A DNA stretch of 64,000 nt from Candidatus Promineifilum breve. GTDB taxonomy: Bacteria > Chloroflexota > Anaerolineae > Promineifilales > Promineifilaceae. Where the stretch lies: the NCBI RefSeq assembly GCF_900066015.1, contig NZ_LN890656.1, forward strand, positions 310,001 to 374,000, in the 5' to 3' direction. The translations under genes were made by a program, and so were the position numbers. Positions within the stretch are counted from its first letter, which is position 1, and every line of letters begins with the position of its first letter. Of this stretch, positions 17,042 to 35,901 are shown piece after piece. The notes beneath the pieces are model-generated. The model saw only the letters and a list, made by a program, of their open reading frames with translations, ran no database searches and was not told the DNA's origin.

Positions 17042-17174
17042 TTCTCCTCCAATAGTCCGGTCGCCGAAAAAATGATGGGGGTTGGCGAATGGGGACTATA
17101 TAAAGGAAGGATAGCACGATTTGGGGGGTTGTTCTCGACGGTTAGGGAATGATTAAGCAACGGGATGGCGACGG

Positions 17175-17400
17175 AGAAGAACCCTCTTCCTAACCCTCTC
17201 CCGGGGGGAGAGGGGACGGAGAAGAACCCTCTCCCTAACCCTCTCCCAAGGGGAGAGGGGACGGAGAAGAAGACCCTCTCCCTAACCCTCTCCCAAGGGG
17301 AGAGGGGACGGGGAAGAACCCTCTCCCTAACCCTCTCCCGGGGGGAGAGGGGACGGGGCCGGCCCCCCTGCTCCCCTGCCCCCCTGCTCCCCTGCTCTGC
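17175..17400. repeat. Four CCCTCTCCC hairpins followed by CCCCTGCTC words
   Basis: Four consecutive hairpins of about 45 bp, CCCTAACCCTCTCCC with the inverse GGGGAGAGGGG, are spaced by ACGGAGAAGAA (17175-17356). They merge into tandem CCCCTGCTC words (17363-17395) and ATTCGTC words. The same two families occur together inside the coding region at 53155-53345. Confidence 0.85.
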
Positions 17401-22761: not shown

Positions 22762-22886
22762 GAATCCACAGATTACACAGATTTCACAGATTTAAAGAGA
22801 GTGAATAGTGGTCAGTGGTCAGTGGGCAGACTGACCACTGACCACTCTACTCTTCAATCTGTGAAATCTGTGTAATCTGTGGATTC
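22762..22886. repeat. Nested double palindrome (CTGTGAAAT outside, GTGGTCA inside)
   Basis: Perfect 31-bp outer arms (22762-22792 and 22856-22886), made of ACACAGATT/TTCACAGATT words, enclose a second perfect 16-bp inverted repeat AGTGGTCAGTGGTCAG (22807-22822) and its complement (22831-22846). The right arm encodes the last residues and stop of the restriction-modification gene. The same two-layer architecture occurs at 62671-62806. Confidence 0.9.
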
Positions 22887-25800
22887 TCCCCTCTTCTCCC
22901 CCGCATCAGGTTTAGATCAAGCAGCCGCTCCAGGATGGCCTCGTCGCTCAACCCATCCGGCCAGCCATAGGCGCGCAACACGGCCGCGTCGAGGGCGCGG
23001 TGGATGTCGTCCAGTTCCCGTATCTCCTCGCGACTGACCCCGCCGCGCGTCTCCTTGTCGAAGGCGGCGCGGTCGAAGGCCGTGCCCTTGTGGTCGCGGT
23101 AGTAGACCAACCCGTTATACAGATTGGTCAAGGTGCGGGCCTTGATCAGCCGGTCGTAGGCCACATCGAGCGTCCCTTTGGCCGGCGGCGGCGGGTTCAG
23201 CCACGCCGCGCGCCACGCCACCAGCTCCCGCGCCCGCCGCGCGATGGCTTCCACAAGCCGCCGCCTGTCTTCCGCCTCTCTGCCCTGCCCACTCTCTTCT
23301 CCCCCCTGCTCCCCCGCTCCCCTGCTCCCCTGCTCTCCTTCCCCCCTGCTCCCCTGCTCCCCCTCAGCCCCCGGCGGCCAGGGGAAGGGGAAAGTCTCGA
23401 AGGTCGTGGTGGGGGTATAGCGCGGGCGGTCTTCGAGCGACGTCCCCATGCGCAGCGCCCACAGTTCGTGCAGCCGGGAGTGGAGGACGCCGAAGAAGTA
23501 GTCGTCGTCGCGGGCGATGGCGATCACGAGATTAGCCGGAAGAATCTCTGGTTCCAGCCAATCAAAAATCCGATGCTTCGCAACCATTGAAGTGCCGATG
23601 TATCTGCTCAGAGGTTTAAGGGCGCTCCTCATTCCCGACCGTGCTTCAGCGTGTAACCACCATTTATCACGGTAGGATGCTCTGCTATTATCCTTACGAA
23701 TTGGATACACATTGTTTTGTACGTAGCTAAATGGGGCTTCGTACTTTCCAGCATCTTCAATGGACATATCAACGCCAAAGTCGACTATCCATACGTCTCG
23801 TGGTCGCCTCGTGATGTCAGTTCCGTTGTAATAGGGTCTAACTACTTTTTGGTTGTTTTCGCTTTCGGCAATCCACTTGCGCGCTAAAGAACCATCAATA
23901 TCAAATGGCCCTGCTGGTGTGACACCCATGAAAGACAAGTGCTGATTTTCCGTTAGTTGCTTTGCTTCACTTACATTGATGGTCGAGGATAGGTCAGAAT
24001 TAATTATAGAAACATTTAACCCATCCAGTGTCTTTGTCGCATTGGTTTCGCTTTTGCCCGCAAATCCAATAATCGACACCCGCACAGCCGCGCCATCCAA
24101 AATCCACGAATTATCACTCCAGGCCATAAAAATATCGCCGGTATCTTTAATGCGATCCAAAACTTTACGGTTCGCGCCGCCACGGATAGAGTTGGTCGCT
24201 AATAAGCCGGCTCGTTTCGCATAGTCTATCTTGATAGCCTCTCGCGCCTTCTCAAACCAGTAGCACACCAAATCCGCCTCGCGCGGTACGCGGCCGTCAT
24301 AGACGCGGAAAACGTCATCCACGTAGGCGTCGCCCAATTCACTACGCAACCGCTTGCCCCCCAAAAACGGCGGATTCCCAATAATCACCTCAGCCGCCGG
24401 CCATTCCGGCTCCACCGGGTGGCCGTCGGCGTCATGGGCCAGGATGGCGTCCATGTGGCGGATGTTGCCCAGCGGCCGCAGCACCGGGTCGTCCATCTCG
24501 GCGAAGCCGTTCTCGTGCCGCCATTGCAGGTAGCCGATCCAGACCGTCACCTGGGCCAGTTCGTGGGCGTATTCGTTGATCTCGATGCCGTACAGTTGGT
24601 GCGGCCCCACCGTCAGCGGAATGTCCGGCAGCCCCCGCCGCGCGGCATGGGTGATGACTTCCTTCTGCAAATCCAGCAGCCGCCGCAGGGCCACGTACAG
24701 AAAGTTGCCGCTGCCGCAGGCGGGATCCAAGACGCGCACCTGGGATAATTCGTGGGCGAATTGTGACAAACGATCGTTTTCTAATGACAAATGACGAATG
24801 ACGAATGACGAATCAAGAGGTTGCTCTTCATTCGTCGTTCGCGGCGGCTCCCCTGCTCCCCTGCCCCCCTGCTCCCCTGCGCCCCCGCCCCCGCCCCCGC
24901 TTCCTCGCCGCACCTCATCCCACCGCCGCTCCAACGGTTCCATCAGCACCGGCTCGACGATCAGTTCGATGTCTTGCCGGCTGGTGTAGTGGGCGCCGAG
25001 TTGGGCGCGCTTGTCCTCGTCGATGACGCGCTCGAAGAGGGTGCCGAAGATGGAGGGATCGACGGCCGACCAATCCTGATCGGCGGCGCGCAAGACCTTG
25101 TGGGCCAGGTCGTGGGGCAGGGCGGGCACGAATTCGTCATCGAACAGCGTGCCGTTGAAATGGCGCACGGCGAACATGCCGAAGTGGCCGCCGTCGCGCA
25201 TGGCGGCGAACAGATTGCGCAGCGGGTGGCGCAGGTCGCTGTAGGCCGTGCCCTGGCCCTTGACGATCTGGGTGAACAGACCGTCGGGCAGCAGCCCCAA
25301 ATCCTCGGCAAACAGGCAGAACAGCAGGCGGATGAGGAAATGGGCGCGCTGTTCGGGGGTGTAGCTCTCGCCGGTCAGCCGTTGGTGCTCCTTCAGCGCC
25401 TCGGCCACGGCCAGGAAGGTATCGGCCGTGGCGCGGGTGATGTTCTCCCGCGTGCGTTCGGGCATGAAGCTGTCGGGGTCAAGGAAGACGCGGCGCAGCA
25501 CATCGACCCCCGGCCCGGCGCCGCCGTTCCCGGCGACGATGTCGTCGAGGGTGACGGTCGTCTTGACCACCGGCCGGTTGGTGAAATTGGAGTAGATGTG
25601 GATGACGCGGGTGTCGCTGGTGATGAGCAGCGGCGGGTTGTTGAGCGCCTCGCGGTAGAGCTGGAGCTGGCGGTAGGCTTTGTCCAGGTCGGCGTGCGGC
25701 CCCTTGTACTCCATGATGAAGTGGTCGCGAAAGTAGACGTCGGCGTAGCCTTTCTGGCCGCCGGCTTTCACGGTCGAAGTCTGGAAGGAGAAGGTCGCGC

Positions 25801-25942
25801 CGGTGGGGTCGTGGCGCGCGCCGTATTCGCTGGGCGTGGCGTGGCCCACCAGCCGGCACAGGTCATCGAAGTGACTGGCATAGAGGGCGGTTTCTTTCTG
25901 CTGTAATTTAGACCATTTGCTGACGAATTCGGCGGGCGACAT
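22847..25942 (-). CDS. MmeI-like fused type II restriction endonuclease/N6-adenine methyltransferase
   Basis: The 1031-residue protein joins an N-terminal nuclease to a gamma-class methyltransferase. The nuclease motif D-X9-EXK (DVYFRDHFIMEYK) matches the spacing known for MmeI-type type IIL enzymes. Methyltransferase motif I is LDPACGSGNFLYVAL (about residue 405) and motif IV is NPPF (about residue 524). A target-recognition region follows (SFMGVTPAGPFDIDG ... RPRYTPTTTFETFPFPW). Such single-chain enzymes cut DNA at a distance and methylate one strand for protection, so no separate subunit is needed. Two low-complexity insertions (residues ~346-389 and ~860-880) are encoded by intergenic-type repeats. 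The C-terminus PQITQISQIEE comes from the flanking palindrome. Confidence 0.88.
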   Translation of the reverse strand: MSPAEFVSKWSKLQQKETALYASHFDDLCRLVGHATPSEYGARHDPTGATFSFQTSTVKAGGQKGYADVYFRDHFIMEYKGPHADLDKAYRQLQLYREALNNPPLLITSDTRVIHIYSNFTNRPVVKTTVTLDDIVAGNGGAGPGVDVLRRVFLDPDSFMPERTRENITRATADTFLAVAEALKEHQRLTGESYTPEQRAHFLIRLLFCLFAEDLGLLPDGLFTQIVKGQGTAYSDLRHPLRNLFAAMRDGGHFGMFAVRHFNGTLFDDEFVPALPHDLAHKVLRAADQDWSAVDPSIFGTLFERVIDEDKRAQLGAHYTSRQDIELIVEPVLMEPLERRWDEVRRGSGGGGGGAGEQGGRGAGEPPRTTNEEQPLDSSFVIRHLSLENDRLSQFAHELSQVRVLDPACGSGNFLYVALRRLLDLQKEVITHAARRGLPDIPLTVGPHQLYGIEINEYAHELAQVTVWIGYLQWRHENGFAEMDDPVLRPLGNIRHMDAILAHDADGHPVEPEWPAAEVIIGNPPFLGGKRLRSELGDAYVDDVFRVYDGRVPREADLVCYWFEKAREAIKIDYAKRAGLLATNSIRGGANRKVLDRIKDTGDIFMAWSDNSWILDGAAVRVSIIGFAGKSETNATKTLDGLNVSIINSDLSSTINVSEAKQLTENQHLSFMGVTPAGPFDIDGSLARKWIAESENNQKVVRPYYNGTDITRRPRDVWIVDFGVDMSIEDAGKYEAPFSYVQNNVYPIRKDNSRASYRDKWWLHAEARSGMRSALKPLSRYIGTSMVAKHRIFDWLEPEILPANLVIAIARDDDYFFGVLHSRLHELWALRMGTSLEDRPRYTPTTTFETFPFPWPPGAEGEQGSRGEGEQGSRGAGEQGGEESGQGREAEDRRRLVEAIARRARELVAWRAAWLNPPPPAKGTLDVAYDRLIKARTLTNLYNGLVYYRDHKGTAFDRAAFDKETRGGVSREEIRELDDIHRALDAAVLRAYGWPDGLSDEAILERLLDLNLMRGRRGENPQITQISQIEE
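23301..23363. repeat. CCCCTGCTC word array inside the restriction-modification gene
   Basis: Tandem CCCCTGCTC/CCCCCTGCTC words lie in frame and encode GEQGSRG/GAGEQGG peptides between the target-recognition region and the C-terminal helices. The same words are intergenic at 17363-17395. Confidence 0.85.
24774..24905. repeat. TGACGAA palindrome plus CCCCTGCTC words inside the restriction-modification gene
   Basis: ATGACGAATGACGAATGACG words (24787-24815) are mirrored by CATTCGTCGTTC (24829-24840) and followed by CCCCTGCTC and CCCCCG words. The array is translated as GSGGGGGGAGEQGG and TTNEEQPLDSSFVIRH just before methyltransferase motif I. Confidence 0.82.
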
Positions 25943-26555: not shown

Positions 26556-27716
26556 TCATTTCACCAGAAACGCTGTCCCATACATAATCAATATCCCCGC
26601 CGCCAGCCCGGCGAAATTGAGCCAGGTCAACGCCGAACCGCCGGCGCGTTGGGCGTCGCGGCTCAGCAGGCGGCCGACTTCCCAGATGACCTGCAAGATG
26701 GCCCCCGCGCCGATGCTGAGGAACAGCGCCGCCAGCAGGGGCGAGAAGGCCAGCCCGCCGATCCACGTGCCCAGGATGGCCGGGCCGCCGGCCAACAGGG
26801 CCAGCAGCACGAAGGCCCGCAGCGGCGGCCGTTGCCGGGTCAAGGGGGCCACCACGCCGATGCCCTCGGTCACGTTGTGGAGCGTGAAGCCGACGACGAG
26901 GAACGAGCCCAAGGCCGCCGCGCCGGTGGCGAAGGCCGCGCCGATGGCCAGCCCCTCGCCGAAGTTGTGCAGCCCGATGCCCAGGGCGATGAGCGCCGCC
27001 ACGCGCAGCGGCGACTGCTCCCCGCCGCGCCGCCCCACGGCCAGCAACACGCCCAGACTGAGCAGCGCCCCGAAGACGACCACCGGCACGCCCTGGAACA
27101 CGCCCGGCGCTTCCCCGGCCAGTTCCAGCGCCTCCAGCAGCGTATCGACGAACAGGAAGATGAGCAGGCCGATGGTCAGGGCCAGCACGGCGTTCAGCCA
27201 TTTGCGGTCAACCCGGCGCAGGAAGGGATACCACAACATGCCCAGGGCCACGGGGATGACGCCGACGTAGATGCCCAGCAGGGCGTAGGCCAGCAGCGTG
27301 CCGCCGTCCAGTGCGGGCGAGACCACGGCCACGTCGACGCCGGCCGGGAAGGTGACGCCGGTGGCGGTGATGAGATTGATGGGCAACGGTTCGCCGTCGA
27401 CCCAGGGGTAGGCCAGGTCGATGGTGGCCGTGTCCAGGCGCCCCAGGGTGCGGCCGGGGCTGATGGTGTGGCGCCAGTAGGCATCATCGACCGTCACCTG
27501 GGCGATGGTCACCGGGTCGGGGCCGCCGTTGATGACCTCCAGGCGGATGGCCCCCGGCGCGGGGAAGAGGACGCGCTGGACGGTCAACTCTTCCAGCGGC
27601 GGGAACGCGCCGCTGAAATAGCGCAATGGGTCGAGGGCCAGAAACCCGGCCACCAGCGCGGCCAGCAGCAATAGCGGCAGCAGGGCCAGCAGCCAGCGCG
27701 GGGCGTTACGTAACAT
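26556..27716 (-). CDS. ZIP family metal transporter with extra N-terminal domain
   Basis: The 386-residue membrane protein has the ZIP metal-binding helices GIGLHNFGEGLAIGAAF and VGFTLHNVTEGIGVV, so both HNxxEG sites are intact. The first ~130 residues are an N-terminal helix and a beta-rich extracytoplasmic segment (VQRVLFPAPGAIRLEVINGG) that is not part of the minimal ZIP fold. ZIP proteins import Zn, Fe or Mn. ATG 27716 overlaps the stop of the upstream multicopper oxidase gene by 11 bp, indicating translational coupling. The joint arrangement suggests periplasmic metal oxidation or binding linked to uptake; this is an inference. Confidence 0.85.
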   Translation of the reverse strand: MLRNAPRWLLALLPLLLLAALVAGFLALDPLRYFSGAFPPLEELTVQRVLFPAPGAIRLEVINGGPDPVTIAQVTVDDAYWRHTISPGRTLGRLDTATIDLAYPWVDGEPLPINLITATGVTFPAGVDVAVVSPALDGGTLLAYALLGIYVGVIPVALGMLWYPFLRRVDRKWLNAVLALTIGLLIFLFVDTLLEALELAGEAPGVFQGVPVVVFGALLSLGVLLAVGRRGGEQSPLRVAALIALGIGLHNFGEGLAIGAAFATGAAALGSFLVVGFTLHNVTEGIGVVAPLTRQRPPLRAFVLLALLAGGPAILGTWIGGLAFSPLLAALFLSIGAGAILQVIWEVGRLLSRDAQRAGGSALTWLNFAGLAAGILIMYGTAFLVK

Positions 27717-28935
27717 CAAAGAACCCCATCCAGCCCAACTCGGCCAGCTCCGTCTGGTGGGCGTGGAACATATAGAGGCCCGGCTCGAAATCCTCGAAGC
27801 TGAACTCCAGGATGCCGCGCTGGGCCTGGCACTGCATGATCGTGTCCACCGTGCGCAGGGTGGGCGTCAGCGTCGTGCCGTGGTCGTAATAGTCGAAGAA
27901 GTTGGCGTGCAGGTGGATGGAGTTGATCGGGTCGAACTCGGTCACGTTGATCAGATAGAGCCGCTGCCGCTGGTCGCGGCGGATGGGGATCGGCCGCGTC
28001 ATGTCATAGGCGAAGGCCACCGTGTTGGCGGCGTAAACCTCGTTCTCGCCGTCGAAATTGGTGTCGAAGCCGTTGAGCACCATGACCATCTCGTTGACGG
28101 CGCGGCTTTCGGCGAACTGGTGATTGCGGGCGCGGGCGGCGGCCGCTTCCGCGCCGCTGAATTGGGCCGGGTCGGGGTCGATGATGAACGCGCCGTATAG
28201 CCCCTTGTGGATGTGGCGCTTGAGGGGCACGGCGTGGCAATGGTACAGATGGCAGCCGAACGGCTTGGCGTCGAACTCGTAGGTGAACGACCCGCCGGGC
28301 TGGATCATGCCCGGCCCCACGCCGGGGATGCCGTCCATCACCGCCGAATGGATGCCGTGGAAGTGGATGGTGTGGGGGTGGCTGCCGGCATTCACGAAGT
28401 GGACGCGCAGCCGCTCGCCGGCCACGCAGCGCAGGCTGGGGCCGGGGCATTGGCCCATCAGCCGGCCGGCGCGGCGCGAGGCGGCGGCCGTCGGGCTGCC
28501 ATAGACCCAGCCGGGAAAATGCACCCCCGGGGCGATCTCGAATTCGCGGTCGATGGCGTAGAGCTGCCAGGTGCGCACGGTGCGGCCGCCTTCCTCGGTC
28601 ACCGTGCCGTAGTCGAAATCGGTCAAAATCTCGTGCGGGTCGAAGCCGTTGGCGGCGTGGTCGACCTGGCCGACGGTGCCCATGCCGCCGTGGTCGGGGG
28701 AAGAGTGCAGGGGGGCAGGGGAGCGGGGGAGCAGGGGGGAGGCGGAATGAAGGGGAGCAGGGGAGCGGGGGAGCAGGGGAGAAGAAGCGTGGGGGTCGTG
28801 AGTGGTGGGGGGCGGTGATTGGTCGGCGCCGGCCGCTTCCAGCCCGCGCAGGCCGAACAGGCCGGCCAGCCCGGCGAGGCTGAAGCCGCCTACGCGCAGG
28901 AAGTCGCGCCGCGAAAAGCCTTGGTTGTCGCTCAT
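27706..28935 (-). CDS. Tat-exported multicopper oxidase domain protein
   Basis: ATG 28935 gives a twin-arginine signal, FSRRDFLRVGGFSLAGLAG; the open frame to 28986 adds no signal-like sequence. Copper motifs include HTIHFHG (HxHG), the core HLYHCHAVPLKRHIHKGLYG, HLHANFF and a last motif HAHQTELAELGWMGFF. The last motif has Ala and Glu where laccases have Cys and His, so the type 1 site probably resides in the HCH core, as in two-domain enzymes. Residues ~41-80 are a Ser/Pro/Leu/His-rich linker encoded by GGGAGCAGG-type repeats. The gene precedes and overlaps the ZIP transporter and is divergent from the TetR gene. Substrate unknown; a metal-oxidase role is plausible. Confidence 0.82.
   Translation of the reverse strand: MSDNQGFSRRDFLRVGGFSLAGLAGLFGLRGLEAAGADQSPPPTTHDPHASSPLLPRSPAPLHSASPLLPRSPAPLHSSPDHGGMGTVGQVDHAANGFDPHEILTDFDYGTVTEEGGRTVRTWQLYAIDREFEIAPGVHFPGWVYGSPTAAASRRAGRLMGQCPGPSLRCVAGERLRVHFVNAGSHPHTIHFHGIHSAVMDGIPGVGPGMIQPGGSFTYEFDAKPFGCHLYHCHAVPLKRHIHKGLYGAFIIDPDPAQFSGAEAAAARARNHQFAESRAVNEMVMVLNGFDTNFDGENEVYAANTVAFAYDMTRPIPIRRDQRQRLYLINVTEFDPINSIHLHANFFDYYDHGTTLTPTLRTVDTIMQCQAQRGILEFSFEDFEPGLYMFHAHQTELAELGWMGFFDVT
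28697..28790. repeat. GGGGAGCAG word array inside the multicopper oxidase gene
   Basis: Repeated GGGGAGCAGGGGAGC words, interrupted by GGCGGAATGAA, are translated on the minus strand as two SPLLPRSPAPLHS units just after the Tat signal. This is the same family as 23301-23363 and 53315-53345. Confidence 0.85.
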
Positions 28936-29195: not shown

Positions 29196-29753
29196 ATGAC
29201 TGCCAAACGGGACGAAATCATCGCCACCACGTGCGAACTGCTGGAGGTGCAGGGCTACCACGCCACCGGGCTGAACCGCATCCTGCAGGAGAGCGGCGCG
29301 CCTAAGGGGTCGCTCTACCACTACTTCCCCGAGGGCAAAGAGGAACTGGCGGCCGAGGCCATTGCCCGGTCGGGCGCGGGCATCGCCGGCCACATCGAGC
29401 GGGCGCTGCTGGAGAGCGACGACCCGGCCGAGGCGGTGACGGGCTTCATCCGCGCCCTGGCCGGCCACGTGGCGGCGTCGGGCTACCGGCAGGGCGGGCC
29501 GATCACCGCCGTGGCCCTGGAGGCGGCCTCCACCAGCGAGCGGCTGCGGCTGGCCTGTCGCGACCAGTATCGCGGCTGGCAGGCGCTATTTGCCGCCAAA
29601 CTGCGGCCCCGCTATGGCCCGGCGCGGGCCGACCGGCTGGCGGCGCTGATCATCGCCGCCATCGAGGGCGGCATCATCCTGGCCCGTAGCGAACGTAGTC
29701 TGCAACCGTTGTTGGCTGTGGCGGAGGAGATTGAGGTGTTGTTGGGGGGGTAG
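29196..29753 (+). CDS. TetR/AcrR family repressor (LmrA/YxaF-like)
   Basis: The 185-residue protein has an N-terminal TetR helix-turn-helix (KRDEIIATTCELLEVQGYHA ... ILQESGAPKGSLYHYFPEGK) and a C-terminal ligand/dimer domain (GYRQGGPITAVALEAAS ... AALIIAAIEGGIILARSER) of the LmrA/YxaF type. The leader contains an LmrA-box-like palindrome on its own promoter. LmrA-type repressors respond to lipophilic drugs or flavonoids and usually control efflux or redox genes. No efflux gene is adjacent. The multicopper oxidase is divergent ~260 bp away, and the NmrA-like gene lies downstream beyond a repeat block. The target is uncertain. Confidence 0.88.
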   Translation: MTAKRDEIIATTCELLEVQGYHATGLNRILQESGAPKGSLYHYFPEGKEELAAEAIARSGAGIAGHIERALLESDDPAEAVTGFIRALAGHVAASGYRQGGPITAVALEAASTSERLRLACRDQYRGWQALFAAKLRPRYGPARADRLAALIIAAIEGGIILARSERSLQPLLAVAEEIEVLLGG

Positions 29754-29842
29754 CGGGTGGCGGGTGGCGGGTGGCGGGTGGCGGGTGGCGGGTGGCGGGT
29801 GGCGGGTGGCGGGTGGCGGGTGGCGGGTGGCGGGTGGCGGCC
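29753..29842. repeat. GGTGGCG heptamer tandem array
   Basis: About twelve uninterrupted copies of the 7-mer GGGTGGC directly after the TetR stop. Shorter or palindromic runs of the same heptamer occur at 37237-37298, 45055-45108, 45780-45850 and 46338-46375. Confidence 0.9.
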
Positions 29843-30261: not shown

Positions 30262-31122
30262 ATGAGCGGGGTCATTCTGGTTACCGGGGCGACGGGCAAC
30301 GTCGGGCGCGAGGTGTTGCGCGAGCTGATCGCGCGGGGGGCGGCGGCGCGGGCGGCCGTCTATAACCTGGCCGACGCGCCCCAGGGGGCGGGCGGCGTGG
30401 CCGAGGCGGTGCGCTTCGACTTCCGCGACCCCACCACCTTTCCCGCCGCCTTCGCCGGGGCCGACCGCCTGTTCCTGATGCGGCCGCCGGCCATCAGCAA
30501 CGTCAAGCGCGACATGCAGCCGGTCATCGACTACGCCGCCCGCCACGGCATCGGCCATATCGTTTTTCTGTCCCTCATCGGCGTCGAGCGCAACCCCATC
30601 GTGCCCCACGCCAAAATCGAGAAGCTGCTCCGGCAGTCGGGCGTGGCCTGGACGATGCTGCGCTGCGGCTTCTTCATGCAAAATCTGGACACGACCCACT
30701 GGGCTGATCTGGTGGAGGCCGACGACATCTTTGTGCCCGCCGGGGGAGGGCGCACCGCCTTCATCGACGCCCGCGACATCGGGGCCGTGGCCGCCCGCGT
30801 GCTGACCGAGCCGGGCCACGCCCACAAAGCCTATAACCTGACCGGCGGCGAAGCGCTGAGCTATGGCGAGGTGGCGGCGATTATGACCGAGGAACTGGGG
30901 CGGCCGATCACCTATAGCGACCCGTCGCCGCTGGCCTTCGCCCGCCGCTTCCGCCGGCGCGGCTACCCCGGGGGCATGGTCAACGTGATGCTGGGCATCT
31001 ATCTGACCACGCGGCTGGGGATGGCCGCCGGCATCAGCCCTGACGTGGCGCGGCTGCTCGGCCGCCCGCCCATTACCATGCGGCAATATGTGCGCGATTA
31101 TGCGGCGACTTTTCAGAAGTGA
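30262..31122 (+). CDS. NmrA-like NAD(P)-binding protein
   Basis: The 286-residue protein starts with a Rossmann dinucleotide-binding loop, VILVTGATGNVGREVL. It continues with NmrA-family features: LFLMRPPAISNVKRDMQPVI, HIVFLSLIGVERNPIVPHAK, WTMLRCGFFMQNL and FIDARDIGAVAARVL. It lacks the YxxxK catalytic pair of classical SDRs. Relatives act as NADP(H)-sensing regulators or quinone/flavin reductases, so the reaction is not assigned. AAGGAG precedes the ATG at 6 bases. A GGTCAGTGGTCTGTGGTC word array (30221-30246) sits directly upstream. Confidence 0.85.
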   Translation: MSGVILVTGATGNVGREVLRELIARGAAARAAVYNLADAPQGAGGVAEAVRFDFRDPTTFPAAFAGADRLFLMRPPAISNVKRDMQPVIDYAARHGIGHIVFLSLIGVERNPIVPHAKIEKLLRQSGVAWTMLRCGFFMQNLDTTHWADLVEADDIFVPAGGGRTAFIDARDIGAVAARVLTEPGHAHKAYNLTGGEALSYGEVAAIMTEELGRPITYSDPSPLAFARRFRRRGYPGGMVNVMLGIYLTTRLGMAAGISPDVARLLGRPPITMRQYVRDYAATFQK

Positions 31123-31133
31123 GGAACGAGGTG

Positions 31134-31333
31134 TGACGAGTATGGACGAAGAATTGGCTACGGATACAACCGGAAAGGACGGATTTCTTCTATCCATTTC
31201 TTCCGTTTATGTCCGTAGCTAATTCTTCACGATTGACGAGTATGGACGAAGAATTGGCTACGGATACAACCGGAAAGGACGGATTTCTTCTATCCGTTTC
31301 TTCCGTTTATGTCCGTAGCTAATTCTTCACGAA
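31134..31333. repeat. Two 100-bp tandem palindromic units
   Basis: Units 31134-31233 and 31234-31333 are nearly identical. Each carries GAAGAATTGGCTACGGA and its near-complement TCCGTAGCTAATTCTTC around TTTCTTC words. The GAAGAATTGGCTACGG word is shared with the 88-bp units at 54886-55178. Confidence 0.85.
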
Positions 31334-31374
31334 TGGGGCATTGAGGTTTTTCATTGCCTCGTTAAAGGTAAATT

Positions 31375-31809
31375 ATGTCAACTATAGCGAAGAAAGTCTC
31401 GAATGGAGTGAACCGCAGCAAGCTGCCCACGGCCGGGCTGGCGTCGGTGGCGGCGGCCGTGGCGGCCAATCTGCTGGCCTTCGTCATCATCCGCGCCCTG
31501 GTCGATTTGCCGGCCGGATTCATGCCGCTGTCGGTGATGTCGATCACCTTTTTCACCATTCTCGGCACGGGGTTGGGGGCGTTACTGTTTGCCTGGCTGG
31601 CCGGGCGGTCGGCCGCGCCTTTTCGGACGTATCGCACCATCGCCATCGTGGCTTTCGTCGTGTCGATCATCCCCAACGTGCTGGCGGCGCTGAACCCGGC
31701 CATGTTCCCGTTTCCCGGCGGCACGGCCGCGGCTTTCCTGGTGCTCATCCTGTTCCACGTGGTGGCGGCGGTGGTTAGTGTGGCGGTGTTGTTTCGTCTG
31801 GCGCGGTAG
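31375..31809 (+). CDS. DUF6069-like four-helix membrane protein
   Basis: The 144-residue protein has four predicted transmembrane helices: AGLASVAAAVAANLLAFVII, the segment around MPLSVMSITFFTILGTGLGA, TIAIVAFVVSIIPNVLAAL and FLVLILFHVVAAVVSVAVLF. This resembles the DUF6069 family, which has no known function. It follows the NmrA-like gene after 250 bp of tandem palindromes, so it may or may not share a transcript. ATG 31375 (MSTIAKK) gives a basic N-terminus before the first helix. Confidence 0.72.
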   Translation: MSTIAKKVSNGVNRSKLPTAGLASVAAAVAANLLAFVIIRALVDLPAGFMPLSVMSITFFTILGTGLGALLFAWLAGRSAAPFRTYRTIAIVAFVVSIIPNVLAALNPAMFPFPGGTAAAFLVLILFHVVAAVVSVAVLFRLAR

Positions 31810-31835
31810 GCATTCTAGGGCATTTCCAGAGTCAA

Positions 31836-31942
31836 TGAACACAGAGCACACGGAGAGCAGACACAGAGGACGCAGCGGGCGATAGCGTCTGGTTTCTCAG
31901 TGTCCTCTGTGTCTGCTCTCTATGGTCTCTGTGTTCTTTACT
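31836..31942. repeat. ACACAGAG/GGACGCAG word palindrome
   Basis: GAACACAGAGCACACGGAGAG and GACACAGAGGACGCAG are mirrored by GTCCTCTGTGTCTGCTCTC and CTCTGTGTTC, giving a long imperfect hairpin after the DUF6069 gene. The centre contains GCGATAGCGTC. Confidence 0.75.
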
Positions 31943-32055
31943 CCTTAGCCCGACTTTGGAGAAGCCCTGTTCATCGATCACACCCATTGGGCGGCTCTTG
32001 TTGTATACTAGAGCCATCACACTTCATCGCACAAACGCTAACCGAAAGGTGATCC

Positions 32056-32319
32056 ATGATGAATGCGTATCGAGCGGTGCTCAAGGGCAATCGACTGGAA
32101 TGGATGGAAGAACCTCCGCCGGAGATGGCTAACGGCGGCGTACAGGTCGTTGTTCTCATGCTGGAGAACCCGGTGGGGTCTTACCCCTCAAGAGGGGAGG
32201 CGATGGCCGCGGCTCTGGCAGGTCTGGCGGAAACGGGCGGCCCTACCTCGTTTGGTGATCCACTGGTCTGGCAGAGGGAGATACGGGAAGATCGGCCTCT
32301 CTATGGGCGGGATTTGTAG
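32056..32319 (+). CDS. Small antitoxin-like hypothetical protein
   Basis: The 87-residue product begins MMNAYRAVLKGNRLEWMEEP and then QVVVLMLEN. This N-terminal beta pattern is reminiscent of small antitoxin-like proteins found in cyanobacteria and Chloroflexota. The C-terminal half has a helix (EAMAAALAGLAETGG) and a toxin-binding-like tail (DPLVWQREIREDRPLYG). No toxin gene lies next to it. TATACT at 32004-32009 may be its -10. ATG 32056 or 32059 is possible; the first is given. Confidence 0.55.
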   Translation: MMNAYRAVLKGNRLEWMEEPPPEMANGGVQVVVLMLENPVGSYPSRGEAMAAALAGLAETGGPTSFGDPLVWQREIREDRPLYGRDL

Positions 32320-32329
32320 GGCCACCGAA

Positions 32330-32372
32330 GAACGATTGCGATCACGATAGCGATAGCGACCACGATAGCGAT
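32330..32372. repeat. CGATAG/GATCAC hexamer array
   Basis: ACGATTGCGATCACGATAGC continues as GATAGCGACCACGATAGCG words. This is the same word family as 3144-3196. It lies immediately upstream of the next ATG. Confidence 0.75.
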
Positions 32373-32386
32373 TGCCACCATATCCC

Positions 32387-33226
32387 ATGCCTGACTACCA
32401 CAACCAACCCACCGCCCGCCTGCAAAACGACCACCTGATCATCGATTACCTGCTGGAGGCCGGGCCGCGCCTCGTGCGCCTTATCCCCACGGCCACGGGC
32501 GAGAACCTGCTGGCCGAGACGCCCGAGGCCACGCTCGAATCGCCCCACGGCCCCTACCGGCTGTGGGGCGGCCACCGGCTGTGGCACGCGCCGGAGACGG
32601 CCGCCCGCACCTACATCCCCGACGAGGGCGAATTGCGTGTAGTCGAACTTCCCGACGGGGTTAGCCTGAGCCGCGAGGAAGCGCGCAGCGGGATTCGCAC
32701 TGAAATTCAGGTGACGCTGCGGCCCGACGCGGCCGGGGCGCGGCTGGTGCATCGCCTGACCAACGTCGGGCTGTGGCCGGTGGAGCTGGCCCCGTGGGCC
32801 ATCACCCAGTTGCGGCCGGGGGGCACGGCCATCCTGCCGCTGCCGGGGGCCATCGACGACGAGGGGCTGCTGCCCAACCGGCTGCTCGCCCTGTGGCCCT
32901 ATAGCCGCTGGGACGACCCGCGCTTCCGGCCGGGCGAGGCGGCCATTGAGATCGACGCCCGGCCCATCGCCCAGCCGTTCAAGCTGGGCTATCTGAACCG
33001 CGCCGGGTGGCTGGCCTATCGCACCGGCGGCCTGACCTTCACCAAGCGCTGGACGCCGCAACCCGACCGGCCCCACGTCGATTTCGGCTGCAACGCCGAG
33101 GTCTACACCAGCGGCAATCACATCGAATTGGAGACGCTGGGGCCGCTGGTGCGCCTGTCGCCGGGTGAGAGCGTTGCCCACAGCGAGGAATGGACGATAA
33201 CGGCTGAGAATTCGATTAGCTATTGA
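32387..33226 (+). CDS. Aldose-1-epimerase-like (galactose mutarotase superfamily) hypothetical protein
   Basis: The 279-residue, beta-rich protein has a pattern of short strands and turns (GPRLVRLIPTATGENLLAET, HGPYRLWGGHRLWHAPE, LVHRLTNVGLWPVELAPWAI, DFGCNAEVYTSGNHIELET). This resembles DUF4380/galactose-mutarotase-like proteins, which may bind carbohydrates. Typical catalytic His-Glu pairs of GalM cannot be assigned with confidence. ATG 32387 is chosen over the TTG at 32372, which lies in the hexamer repeat. The gene stands alone between repeats. Confidence 0.55.
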   Translation: MPDYHNQPTARLQNDHLIIDYLLEAGPRLVRLIPTATGENLLAETPEATLESPHGPYRLWGGHRLWHAPETAARTYIPDEGELRVVELPDGVSLSREEARSGIRTEIQVTLRPDAAGARLVHRLTNVGLWPVELAPWAITQLRPGGTAILPLPGAIDDEGLLPNRLLALWPYSRWDDPRFRPGEAAIEIDARPIAQPFKLGYLNRAGWLAYRTGGLTFTKRWTPQPDRPHVDFGCNAEVYTSGNHIELETLGPLVRLSPGESVAHSEEWTITAENSISY

Positions 33227-33251
33227 CGATTGCCCCCCGATTCATTACACT
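33223..33251 (+). promoter_or_regulatory. Sigma-70 promoter of the M6 peptidase gene
   Basis: TTGACG (33223-33228) and TACACT (33246-33251) are separated by 17 bases. The -35 overlaps the stop of the upstream gene. The same TACACT -10 form occurs at 37339-37344. Confidence 0.55.
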
Positions 33252-33257
33252 ATCCTA

Positions 33258-33633
33258 GTTCTGTGCTGCCGGATTGTGGGTAGGAGCCTATTGGGATCGT
33301 CCGTCAAACGCCCCGGGGTCGGGGCGCGCCATTGTGACAGAAGTGCTTAACCGAACGAGTGGGTTGGCGCTACTGCTGGCGGTTGCCTGTTGCCGCAGCC
33401 GGATTGATGGATGATCGGTTCGCCCGGTTCACACGTTGTGGCCGCGGCCGCGCTTCCCCATCACCCCGGCCATCCCGCAACCGCGTTTTGCTGGTGTTTA
33501 TTCTATACACTTCATCGAACGGAGGTGGCTATTGCCGGAGTGATAACCTGATTTCCTACGAAACGGAACAAGCCTGCGGAGAAAGATTCTCCGCGCCATC
33601 CATTGATCGAGTAGAACCAAAAGAGGAAAAACT
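33258..33633 (+). other. Long untranslated leader of the M6 peptidase gene
   Basis: If the promoter at 33223-33251 is used, about 375 nt precede the ATG. The region contains the GC hairpin CGCCCCGGGGTCGGGGCG (33310-33327) and further GC-rich inverted segments. No known riboswitch consensus could be matched by eye. Small frames here are not supported as genes. Confidence 0.4.
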
Positions 33634-35901
33634 ATGCATCGCAAGCATTTTGCGGTTTTATTGCTGGCCCTCGTGTTGATGCTCAGCCTGACGTCCCTGG
33701 CCATGGGTCAGGGCGACGACTTGCTGGCCGAAGACCGTGCCCTGCGCGGCGGCGACGGCGACAACCTGCCCCACCCGTTGGGCAAGCAGCAGAGCGGGCA
33801 GCGCCAGTTGGCCCTGCAACAGGTATTGCGCACCGCCACCCCGGCGGGCGTTGTCCAGCTTGGCCCGAACGAGTTTGTTCAACTGGAGCGCGAGGACGAG
33901 GATTCGATCCTGACGATCCTGGGCGAGTTCGGCAATCGCGTCCATCCCAGCTACGGCGGCGCCCAAGGCCCGCGCAAGAACACGATTCCCGAACCGGATC
34001 GCAGCGTGGATAACACCACGATCTGGACCGAGGATTTCAACCGCGACTACTATCTCGACCTGCTGTTCTCCGAAGAACCGGGCGCCATCTCGATGCGCAA
34101 TTACTACATCGAGCAGTCGTCGAACGTCTATGCCGTGAACGGCGACGTCTCCGACTGGGGGCGCGTGCGCTACAACACGGCGCGCTACGGCAACAATGCC
34201 TGCGGCAGCAACGTCTGCTCCACGGTGTGGTACTTCGTTCAGGATTCGGTGAACGAGTGGTACGACAACATGATCGCCAGCGGCATGTCGGCCGAAGACA
34301 TCAACGCCTACCTGGCCTCCTTTGACGTGTGGGACCGCTACGACTTCAACGGCAACGGCAACTTCGACGAGCCGGACGGTTACATCGACCACTTCCAGTC
34401 GGTTCATGCCGGCGAGGGCGAGGAAACCGGCGGCGGCGCGTTCGGCACCGATGCTATCTGGAGCCATCGCTGGTACGCCTTCTATAACCTGATCGGTTCG
34501 GCCGGCCCGTCGTTCAACATGTACGGCGGCCTGCAGATCGGCGATTCCGACTACTGGATCGGCGACTACACCATCGAGCCGGAGAACGGCGGCGTGGGCG
34601 TGTTCGCCCATGAATTCGCCCACGACCTGGGCCTGCCCGACCTGTATGACACGGCCGGCGGCGAGAATTCGACCGGCTTCTGGACGCTGATGTCGCAGGG
34701 TTCCTACGGCAACGACGGCACGACCGACATCGGCAGCAAGCCGACCCACATGGGCAACTGGGAGAAGTTCCAGCTTGGTTGGCTCGACTACGCCGTGGCC
34801 TTCGCCGGTCAGCGCCAGCGCATGATCCTCGGCCCGGCCGCCACGACCACCAACCGCGCCCAAGGCGCCTTCATCGTGCTGCCCGACAAGCAGGTTGACC
34901 TCGACCTGGGCGACCCGTATGCCGGGGAGAACTTCTACTACAGCGGTTCGGGCGACGACCTCGATAACCTGATGTACCGCGAGTTCGATCTGCCGGCCGG
35001 GGCCATGCTGACGGCTCAGGTGCGCTACCAGATCGAACTGGATTGGGATTACGCCTACGTGATCGTCTCCGATGACGGCGGCGCGACCTGGCACCACGTC
35101 GAGACCAATCTGTCGACCAACGACGACCCCAACGGCCAGAACTTCGGCAACGGCATCACCGGCGATTCCGGTGGCGCGTGGGTCGAGCTGACCGCCGACC
35201 TGTCGGCCTACACCGGCCCGACGCTGGTGGGCTTCCGCTACTGGACCGACGGCGCGGTGGCCGAGCCGGGCTTCATGATCGACGAGATCGCCATCACCGG
35301 TTCGCCCGTCGATGGCGCCGAGAGCGACATGGGCTGGACGTTCGACCCCGAGGGCGGCTTCCACGTGACGACCGGCTCCTCGACGTCGTTCTACTTCAAT
35401 GCCTACGTGCTGGAGTATCGCCAGTACTGGGGCTTTGACGAGTCGCTGCGCGACGGCCCGTACAACTTCGGCTTCCTGGATAACCCCGACCTGCAGAACT
35501 GGGTCGAGCACTTCCCCTATCAGGACGGCCTGTTGATCAACTACTGGGACGGTTCGCAGTCCGATAACAACACCAGCCAGCACCCCGGCGAGGGTCTGGT
35601 CCTGCCCATCGACGCCCACCCGGCGACGATGTACCGCGCCGACGGCGTGCCGTGGCGGCCGCGCGTGCAGTCCTATGACTCCCCGTTCGGCATCTGGCGG
35701 ACGGATGCCATCACGCTGCACCGCAACAGCATGCCTTCGGTCCATCGCAGCCTGCGCCCGGTGCGCCTGTTCAACGACAACATGCAATACTGGAACCCGG
35801 AAACGCCGACCGCCGGCGTGATGAACCCGCACACCAACACGCGCGTGCGCATCATCGGCGTCAGCCATACCGGCGCGTTCATGAATATCGAAATCCGCTA
35901 A
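33634..35901 (+). CDS. Secreted M6 (immune inhibitor A-like) metalloprotease
   Basis: The 755-residue protein starts with a signal peptide, MHRKHFAVLLLALVLMLSLT ... AMGQG. The zinc site is FAHEFAHDLGLPDLYDT, an HExxH motif near residue 326 with the M6-type GLPD follow-up and a downstream STGFWTLMSQGS segment. An InhA-like beta-sandwich with YAYVIVSDDGGATW and a C-terminal module (YRQYWGFDESLRDGPYNFGF, then LLINYWDG) complete the architecture. The family degrades extracellular proteins. AGAGGAAAA precedes the ATG. Single-gene transcription from a long leader is likely. Confidence 0.92.
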   Translation: MHRKHFAVLLLALVLMLSLTSLAMGQGDDLLAEDRALRGGDGDNLPHPLGKQQSGQRQLALQQVLRTATPAGVVQLGPNEFVQLEREDEDSILTILGEFGNRVHPSYGGAQGPRKNTIPEPDRSVDNTTIWTEDFNRDYYLDLLFSEEPGAISMRNYYIEQSSNVYAVNGDVSDWGRVRYNTARYGNNACGSNVCSTVWYFVQDSVNEWYDNMIASGMSAEDINAYLASFDVWDRYDFNGNGNFDEPDGYIDHFQSVHAGEGEETGGGAFGTDAIWSHRWYAFYNLIGSAGPSFNMYGGLQIGDSDYWIGDYTIEPENGGVGVFAHEFAHDLGLPDLYDTAGGENSTGFWTLMSQGSYGNDGTTDIGSKPTHMGNWEKFQLGWLDYAVAFAGQRQRMILGPAATTTNRAQGAFIVLPDKQVDLDLGDPYAGENFYYSGSGDDLDNLMYREFDLPAGAMLTAQVRYQIELDWDYAYVIVSDDGGATWHHVETNLSTNDDPNGQNFGNGITGDSGGAWVELTADLSAYTGPTLVGFRYWTDGAVAEPGFMIDEIAITGSPVDGAESDMGWTFDPEGGFHVTTGSSTSFYFNAYVLEYRQYWGFDESLRDGPYNFGFLDNPDLQNWVEHFPYQDGLLINYWDGSQSDNNTSQHPGEGLVLPIDAHPATMYRADGVPWRPRVQSYDSPFGIWRTDAITLHRNSMPSVHRSLRPVRLFNDNMQYWNPETPTAGVMNPHTNTRVRIIGVSHTGAFMNIEIR

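Follow-up and report, generated by a model that had tools for sequence, protein, structure and literature searches.

Dispersed short repeats translated in frame within an MmeI-like restriction-modification enzyme of Candidatus Promineifilum breve

The MmeI-like restriction-modification gene of Candidatus Promineifilum breve encodes, between its helical spacer and methyltransferase motif I, a linker that contains several short tandem repeats (linker 1, codons 346-390; positions 24773-24907, minus strand, of the window, by which is meant the whole 64,000-nucleotide stretch of DNA analysed). We consider it probable that this linker is a site of in-frame insertion of dispersed repeats, at which inserts survive only if they are tolerated. 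A preliminary description of the window had claimed that repeat words are translated in frame at this place, and this was borne out; two further repeat-coded stretches that it had not reported were found in the same gene.

The MmeI-Like Gene and Its Repeat-Coded Stretches

The gene, a Type IIG/IIL-like fusion of restriction and modification functions, occupies positions 22847-25942 on the minus strand and encodes a protein of 1031 amino acids that matches Pfam models and the solved MmeI structure 5HR4. The Pfam domains MmeI_hel, MmeI_Mtase, and MmeI_TRD lie at residues 200-267, 389-632, and 789-854, respectively, and the translation shows the motifs DPACGSGNFL, NPPF, and D-x-EYK. Judged by its sequence, the predicted protein is a member of the MmeI family, possessing an N-terminal nuclease motif, the helical spacer, an N6 methyltransferase with motif I and NPPF, and a target recognition domain. 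Comparison with a homologue of the same genus, with the linkers left out, gave a dN/dS of about 0.25, which is consistent with a working gene. The recognition domain (residues 631-856) is only 46% identical to that of the same-genus homologue in genome G005 (L036), compared with 76-88% for the remaining parts, and a swap of this domain is likely.

The peptide encoded by linker 1 is GSGGGGGGAGEQGGRGAGEPPRTTNEEQPLDSSFVIRHLSLENDR. Its DNA combines three repeats: CGCCCC in a run, the octamer CCCCTGCT in tandem, and the heptamer AATGACG, likewise in tandem and accompanied by a hairpin. Tandem Repeats Finder (TRF) delimits 4.9 copies of the octamer GCTCCCCT at 24847-24885 and 3.5 copies of CGCCCC at 24880-24900, a combined stretch (24847-24900) that is read on the minus strand as GSGGGGGGAGEQGGRGAGE. 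The heptamer array (24783-24813, TRF, 4.4 copies) is read on the minus strand, its stop-free orientation, as SSFVIRHLSL. The TGACGAA words had been described as palindromic; the heptamer itself is not, and the palindrome is instead a hairpin at 24802-24841, with 18-nt arms (24802-24819 and 24824-24841) and a 4-nt loop, which was recovered by inverted-repeat search and RNA folding and is the top-scoring inverted repeat detected in the open reading frame (ORF).

The second in-frame octamer array, at 23303-23362 (TRF, 7.5 copies of CCCCTGCT; codons 861-880), lies in the linker that leads from the recognition domain to the C-terminal helices, and is found in the G005 homologue and missing from the other homologues. 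The third stretch is a nonamer array at 22856-22881 (TRF, 2.9 copies of AATCTGTGA) coding the C-terminal tail NPQITQISQIEE. Predicted tryptic peptides that would be diagnostic of translation are GSGGGGGGAGEQGGR, GAGEPPR, and TTNEEQPLDSSFVIR.

Placement of Linker 1 in the Protein Structure

In the alignment to the solved MmeI, residues 342 and 345 of 5HR4 stand where the focal protein has residues 346 and 390; the linker 1 stretch is thus missing from the solved enzyme, which has 2 residues at that place. The preliminary description had proposed an alignment with MmeI-family proteins as a check, and its outcome supports an insertion, the linkers of homologues being unrelated to that of the focal protein. 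The linker between '...PLRRRWDEVRRQ' and '...FAAEIAAVRVLDPACGSGNFL' varies in length and sequence among family- and class-level homologues, and alignments within it are too poor to separate insertion from replacement. The case that was named as speaking against the idea, the same peptide encoded by unrelated DNA words, was not seen among these homologues, which have different peptides encoded by different repeats.

An AlphaFold2 model of the protein (mean pLDDT 80.6) contains only three long stretches with pLDDT below 50, at residues 350-377, 863-883, and 1020-1028, and these coincide with the three repeat-coded stretches, although low values are partly expected there because homologues lack those columns. 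Linker 1 bridges a helix at residues 322-349 and another at 378-401, and is modelled as a low-confidence coil, that is, as disordered.

Palindromes in the Same Linker of Homologues

The MmeI linker also codes palindromes, of different sequence, in the homologues of G050, G051, G021, G022, G034, and G035, and in all of these except G035 the linker palindrome is the strongest, or joint strongest, inverted repeat in the entire ORF. Most are multicopy within their own genomes, copy numbers here including the linker copy: that of G050 (ACCTGACAGGT) is represented by 55 arm pairs, that of G034 (GACCTGCGAGGT) by 17 copies, and that of G021 (GTGACAGGCACTT) by 6 copies. The arm pattern of the G051 palindrome has a single further copy in G051 when loops of up to 30 bases are searched. 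A second, C-terminal loop also bears a palindrome in G051, G022, and G034. Sampling of 22 palindromes in G050 placed 3 within long ORFs, those of MurD, DltB-like, and RsmF-like proteins. At the G034 locus (G034:C45:30327-34274; L046 = 30620-35047), the restriction-modification gene and its immediate surroundings account for 6 of the 17 GACCTGCGAGGT palindromes, including 2 inside the ORF in different loops and 1 right past the stop codon.

Close relatives differ within the linker itself. The flanking protein of G050 and G051 is about 90% identical and the linker 32%, and G021 and G035 share 88-96% identity outside the linker and 46% within it, while the G005 homologue has a heptamer-type linker built from other words. 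A single ancestral insertion in the restriction enzyme would be compatible with the tree, yet was rejected, as sister pairs bear different palindromes. Ordinary linkers, devoid of a hairpin, are present in G018, G020, G038, G040, G041, G045, and the outgroup homologues, and so neither a hairpin nor a repeat is required. All of these homologues are kin, and counts across them are not independent.

Repeats Across the Genome

The arrays are a feature of the genome at large. The 5.03-Mb genome contains 153 copies of the AATGACG word AATGACGAATGACGAAT compared with 0 for a reversed control, and CCCCTGCTCCCCTGC, with up to 2 mismatches, matches 24 sites in the 64-kb window against 0.47 expected. More detailed statistics refer to the first 1.0 Mb of contig C2, joined from separately retrieved stretches, in which a home-made, self-trained dicodon model called 753 genes (86% of the sequence coding). 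Exact arrays of period 7, 8, and 9 number 185, 45, and 24 in this region, compared with 0, 1, and 0 in a shuffled control, and arrays of other periods are mostly rare. The exact arrays fall into 25 heptamer and 5 octamer classes of variable length that share no common element. Adjacent heptamer arrays up to 120 bp apart are inverted in 27 cases and direct in 5, random pairs being even. A composite octamer-heptamer element was considered and rejected: a heptamer array lies no more than 60 bp away from 5 of the 45 octamer arrays, and with 2.8 expected this does not exceed chance.

The words of linker 1 had been described as intergenic elsewhere, which holds for most heptamer arrays but not for all: 115 of the 185 are intergenic, 29 lie within predicted genes, and 41 straddle gene boundaries. 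Heptamer arrays are depleted in coding DNA, with 16% in genes where 86% of the sequence is coding. Those heptamers that contain stops on both strands are found in genes once and between genes 31 times, the other heptamers being genic in 28 cases and intergenic in 84 (Fisher p=0.005), and the octamer, which is stop-free on both strands, is genic in 17 of 45 cases, more commonly than the heptamers (p=0.03). This distribution is the mark of a selection filter, although the near-absence of stop-bearing arrays from genes follows in part from what defines an ORF.

A RAYT/Y1 transposase was considered as the mobilizer of the arrays and gained no support: the genome has 3 Y1 transposase (Y1_Tnp) genes, and no array of 7- to 9-mers was present in the surrounding loci of about 3.3 kb. 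Exact (AATGACG)4 was found, among the matches listed, in Verrucomicrobia, Planctomycetes, Bacteroidetes, Cyanobacteria, and other phyla (L127-L243), where 9 of 121 listed arrays lie deep in long ORFs, mostly reading ...SSFVIRHSSFVIRH...; the scan covered this heptamer alone, and cross-phylum enrichment or transfer of AATGACG is not claimed.

Three other repeats of the window may be recorded here. Its longest heptamer array, (GGGTGGC) at 29748-29840 (13.3 copies, 98% matches), begins at the stop of a small TetR-like ORF (29196-29753) and is a candidate for length variation. An octamer array at 28707-28781 is read as SPLLPRSPAPLH repeats in the N-terminal part of a multicopper-oxidase-like ORF (27706-28935, minus strand). 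An intergenic tandem 45-bp repeat (AACCCTCTCCC...GGGGAGAGGG) occupies 17170-17356, and related words are present in the PurH inserts of the focal genome and of the same-genus genome G007.

Translated Arrays in Other Genes

The MmeI-like gene is not unique in the genome, as 49 heptamer, octamer, and nonamer arrays lie within 28 predicted genes of the 1.0-Mb region. Among 20 further array-bearing proteins that were scanned, at least 12 have curated domains flanking or spanning the array, among them PurH, Tex, a family B polymerase, and two restriction enzymes with translated heptamer arrays, a Type ISP enzyme and a ResIII protein (L067:8513-11659 and L103:7529-10174). One 1797-aa membrane ORF (L067:1927-7320, minus strand; PMT_2, DUF2298) carries seven translated arrays between and within its domains.

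Filled and empty sites can be compared within the genus for two of these proteins. The PurH insert is sited at the joint of the cyclohydrolase and transformylase parts (residues 197-217 of Mycobacterium tuberculosis PurH), where a single loop of the focal protein combines words that resemble three types of repeat, G007 has a different repeat-like insert, and the linker of G005, like that of other genera, is short and ordinary. The focal PurH passes the cut-off of its NCBIfam model. In Tex, one loop holds an insert in the focal genome and a different one in G003, and is empty in G005.

Origin of the Linker

Insertion would proceed as follows. Short heptamer, octamer, and nonamer arrays number in the hundreds in this genome, and the heptamers often stand as inverted pairs forming hairpins. 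These dispersed, mostly intergenic arrays would spread and land anywhere, and copies in genes would come from elsewhere in the genome. A genic copy would survive only if the frame was kept, the orientation was stop-free, and the site was a flexible linker or loop, a pattern that the surviving copies display. The insert would then be translated as a passive disordered spacer of no required sequence, as the structural model and the free replacement in relatives suggest, and the enzyme would presumably still work. In sister genomes, palindromes native to each genome appear to have entered or replaced the same linker, which may thus be regarded as a recurrently occupied, tolerant site.

Points counted against insertion are that neither an excision product nor a mobilizing transposase was identified and that in-gene arrays could grow in place through slippage. 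Slippage can indeed generate tandem arrays, and the repeat units differ among same-genus homologues, as would be anticipated if a pre-existing low-complexity linker had been expanded by slippage and drift with no DNA from elsewhere. We nonetheless regard such a local origin as unlikely, given that the linker units are identical to those found genome-wide, that the palindromes of G050, G034, and G021 belong to multicopy families, that inverted repeats are not a product of slippage, and that words resembling three repeat types share one PurH loop. An equally small probability is assigned to a phase-variable enzyme, in which gain or loss of units by slippage would shift the frame, since a unit of 7 or 8 bases does not make up whole codons, and so switch restriction-modification off and on. 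Such units do sit within the ORF, the other two frames meet a stop 3-114 codons past linker 1, and repeat-driven switching of restriction-modification genes is an established theme (e.g., PMC6321876 and PMC3936762). The arrays, however, are interrupted and short, at about 4-8 units each; PurH and Tex, whose switching off would be harmful, hold similar arrays; and the relatives' linker holds non-tandem palindromes that offer no unit-wise slippage.

Two further readings carry less weight still. The palindrome might have been retained for a regulatory effect of its structure, in mRNA or DNA, on expression of the enzyme or on its co-translational folding, a proposal to which at least five homologues with hairpins of different sequence at the linker, and a weaker hairpin in the focal gene, lend some colour; it is nevertheless very improbable, as the six homologues with ordinary linkers and all outgroups have none, and the PurH and Tex of relatives manage without inserts. 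Misassembly of repeats is frequent, yet we give almost no credence to the ORF being a decaying pseudogene or an assembly artefact, as 1031 codons are open under the dN/dS given above, the independent genome G005 has a homologous repeat-bearing linker, and PurH shows the same pattern with its model score above cut-off. Within the preferred reading of in-frame insertion, there is a minor chance that active and repeated swapping of genome-specific repeats, by a dispersal mechanism common to heptamers and palindromes, makes true hot spots of the MmeI linker and of the loops in PurH and Tex. They may instead be merely tolerant sites that retain rare insertions, and the data are compatible with both.

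Comparison With Known Systems

Rickettsia palindromic elements (RPEs) are palindromic families of about 150 bp with a conserved peptide (Ogata 2000, 2002, via review PMC10969869), and a likeness to them had been suggested in the preliminary description. It stands as an analogy. Like RPEs, the repeats described here are dispersed and lie in frame within intact protein genes (the focal gene, PurH, Tex, and others), genes of basic metabolism included, where they are apparently tolerated and translated. The C2 arrays do not form a palindromic family of about 150 bp with conserved sequence and peptide. Unlike RPEs, the focal arrays consist of short heptamers, octamers, and nonamers in tandem, accompanied by hairpins; their length varies, and the phylum in which they occur is a distant one. 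By this comparison, they would work in the manner of RPEs while remaining outside the RPE family.

Precedents exist for translated repetitive extragenic palindromes (REPs) and for translated heptamers. REPs in genes are GTAG/CGTC-tagged palindromes of 20-40 bp, mostly intergenic with some translated, and two Xanthomonas species have different REPs at about the same recB site (PMC3733652), whereas here several unlike repeat types fill one linker across the family, and no RAYT link was found for the heptamers around the 3 Y1 transposase genes. The focal heptamers are dispersed, multicopy, tandem, and mainly intergenic, as are the STRRs of filamentous cyanobacteria (compared by description rather than by units), the intergenic GGGNATC of Xanthomonas and Nostoc (PMC4692102), and the TAACTGA of Beggiatoaceae, which is read in one orientation in 11 ORFs of one genome (PMC4679880), all in distant phyla. 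Genic copies of these earlier heptamers mostly belong to small hypothetical proteins or to the ends of proteins, whereas the focal ones separate or interrupt domains in PurH, Tex, polymerase B, and restriction enzymes, and PurH and Tex have empty sites for comparison in the same genus. Domain order and motifs are those of MmeI and other Type IIL/IIG enzymes, to which the focal enzyme adds two linkers coded by repeats, of 45 and about 20 residues, and a tail coded likewise.

Protein-coding 'selfish' repeats are best known from Rickettsia; the present data suggest that they are also common among free-living bacteria of one group, where they enter genes including purH and murD. With filled and empty sites at hand in a single genus, the movement of heptamer arrays and small palindromes and the tolerance of enzymes to random in-frame inserts both become directly testable, and glycine-rich or SSFVIRH-like stretches should not be taken for functional domains. 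What is new relative to the known systems is the filling of one enzyme linker by several unlike repeat types across a family, the presence of arrays in linkers of essential genes with empty-site comparisons, and the like behaviour of octamers and nonamers.
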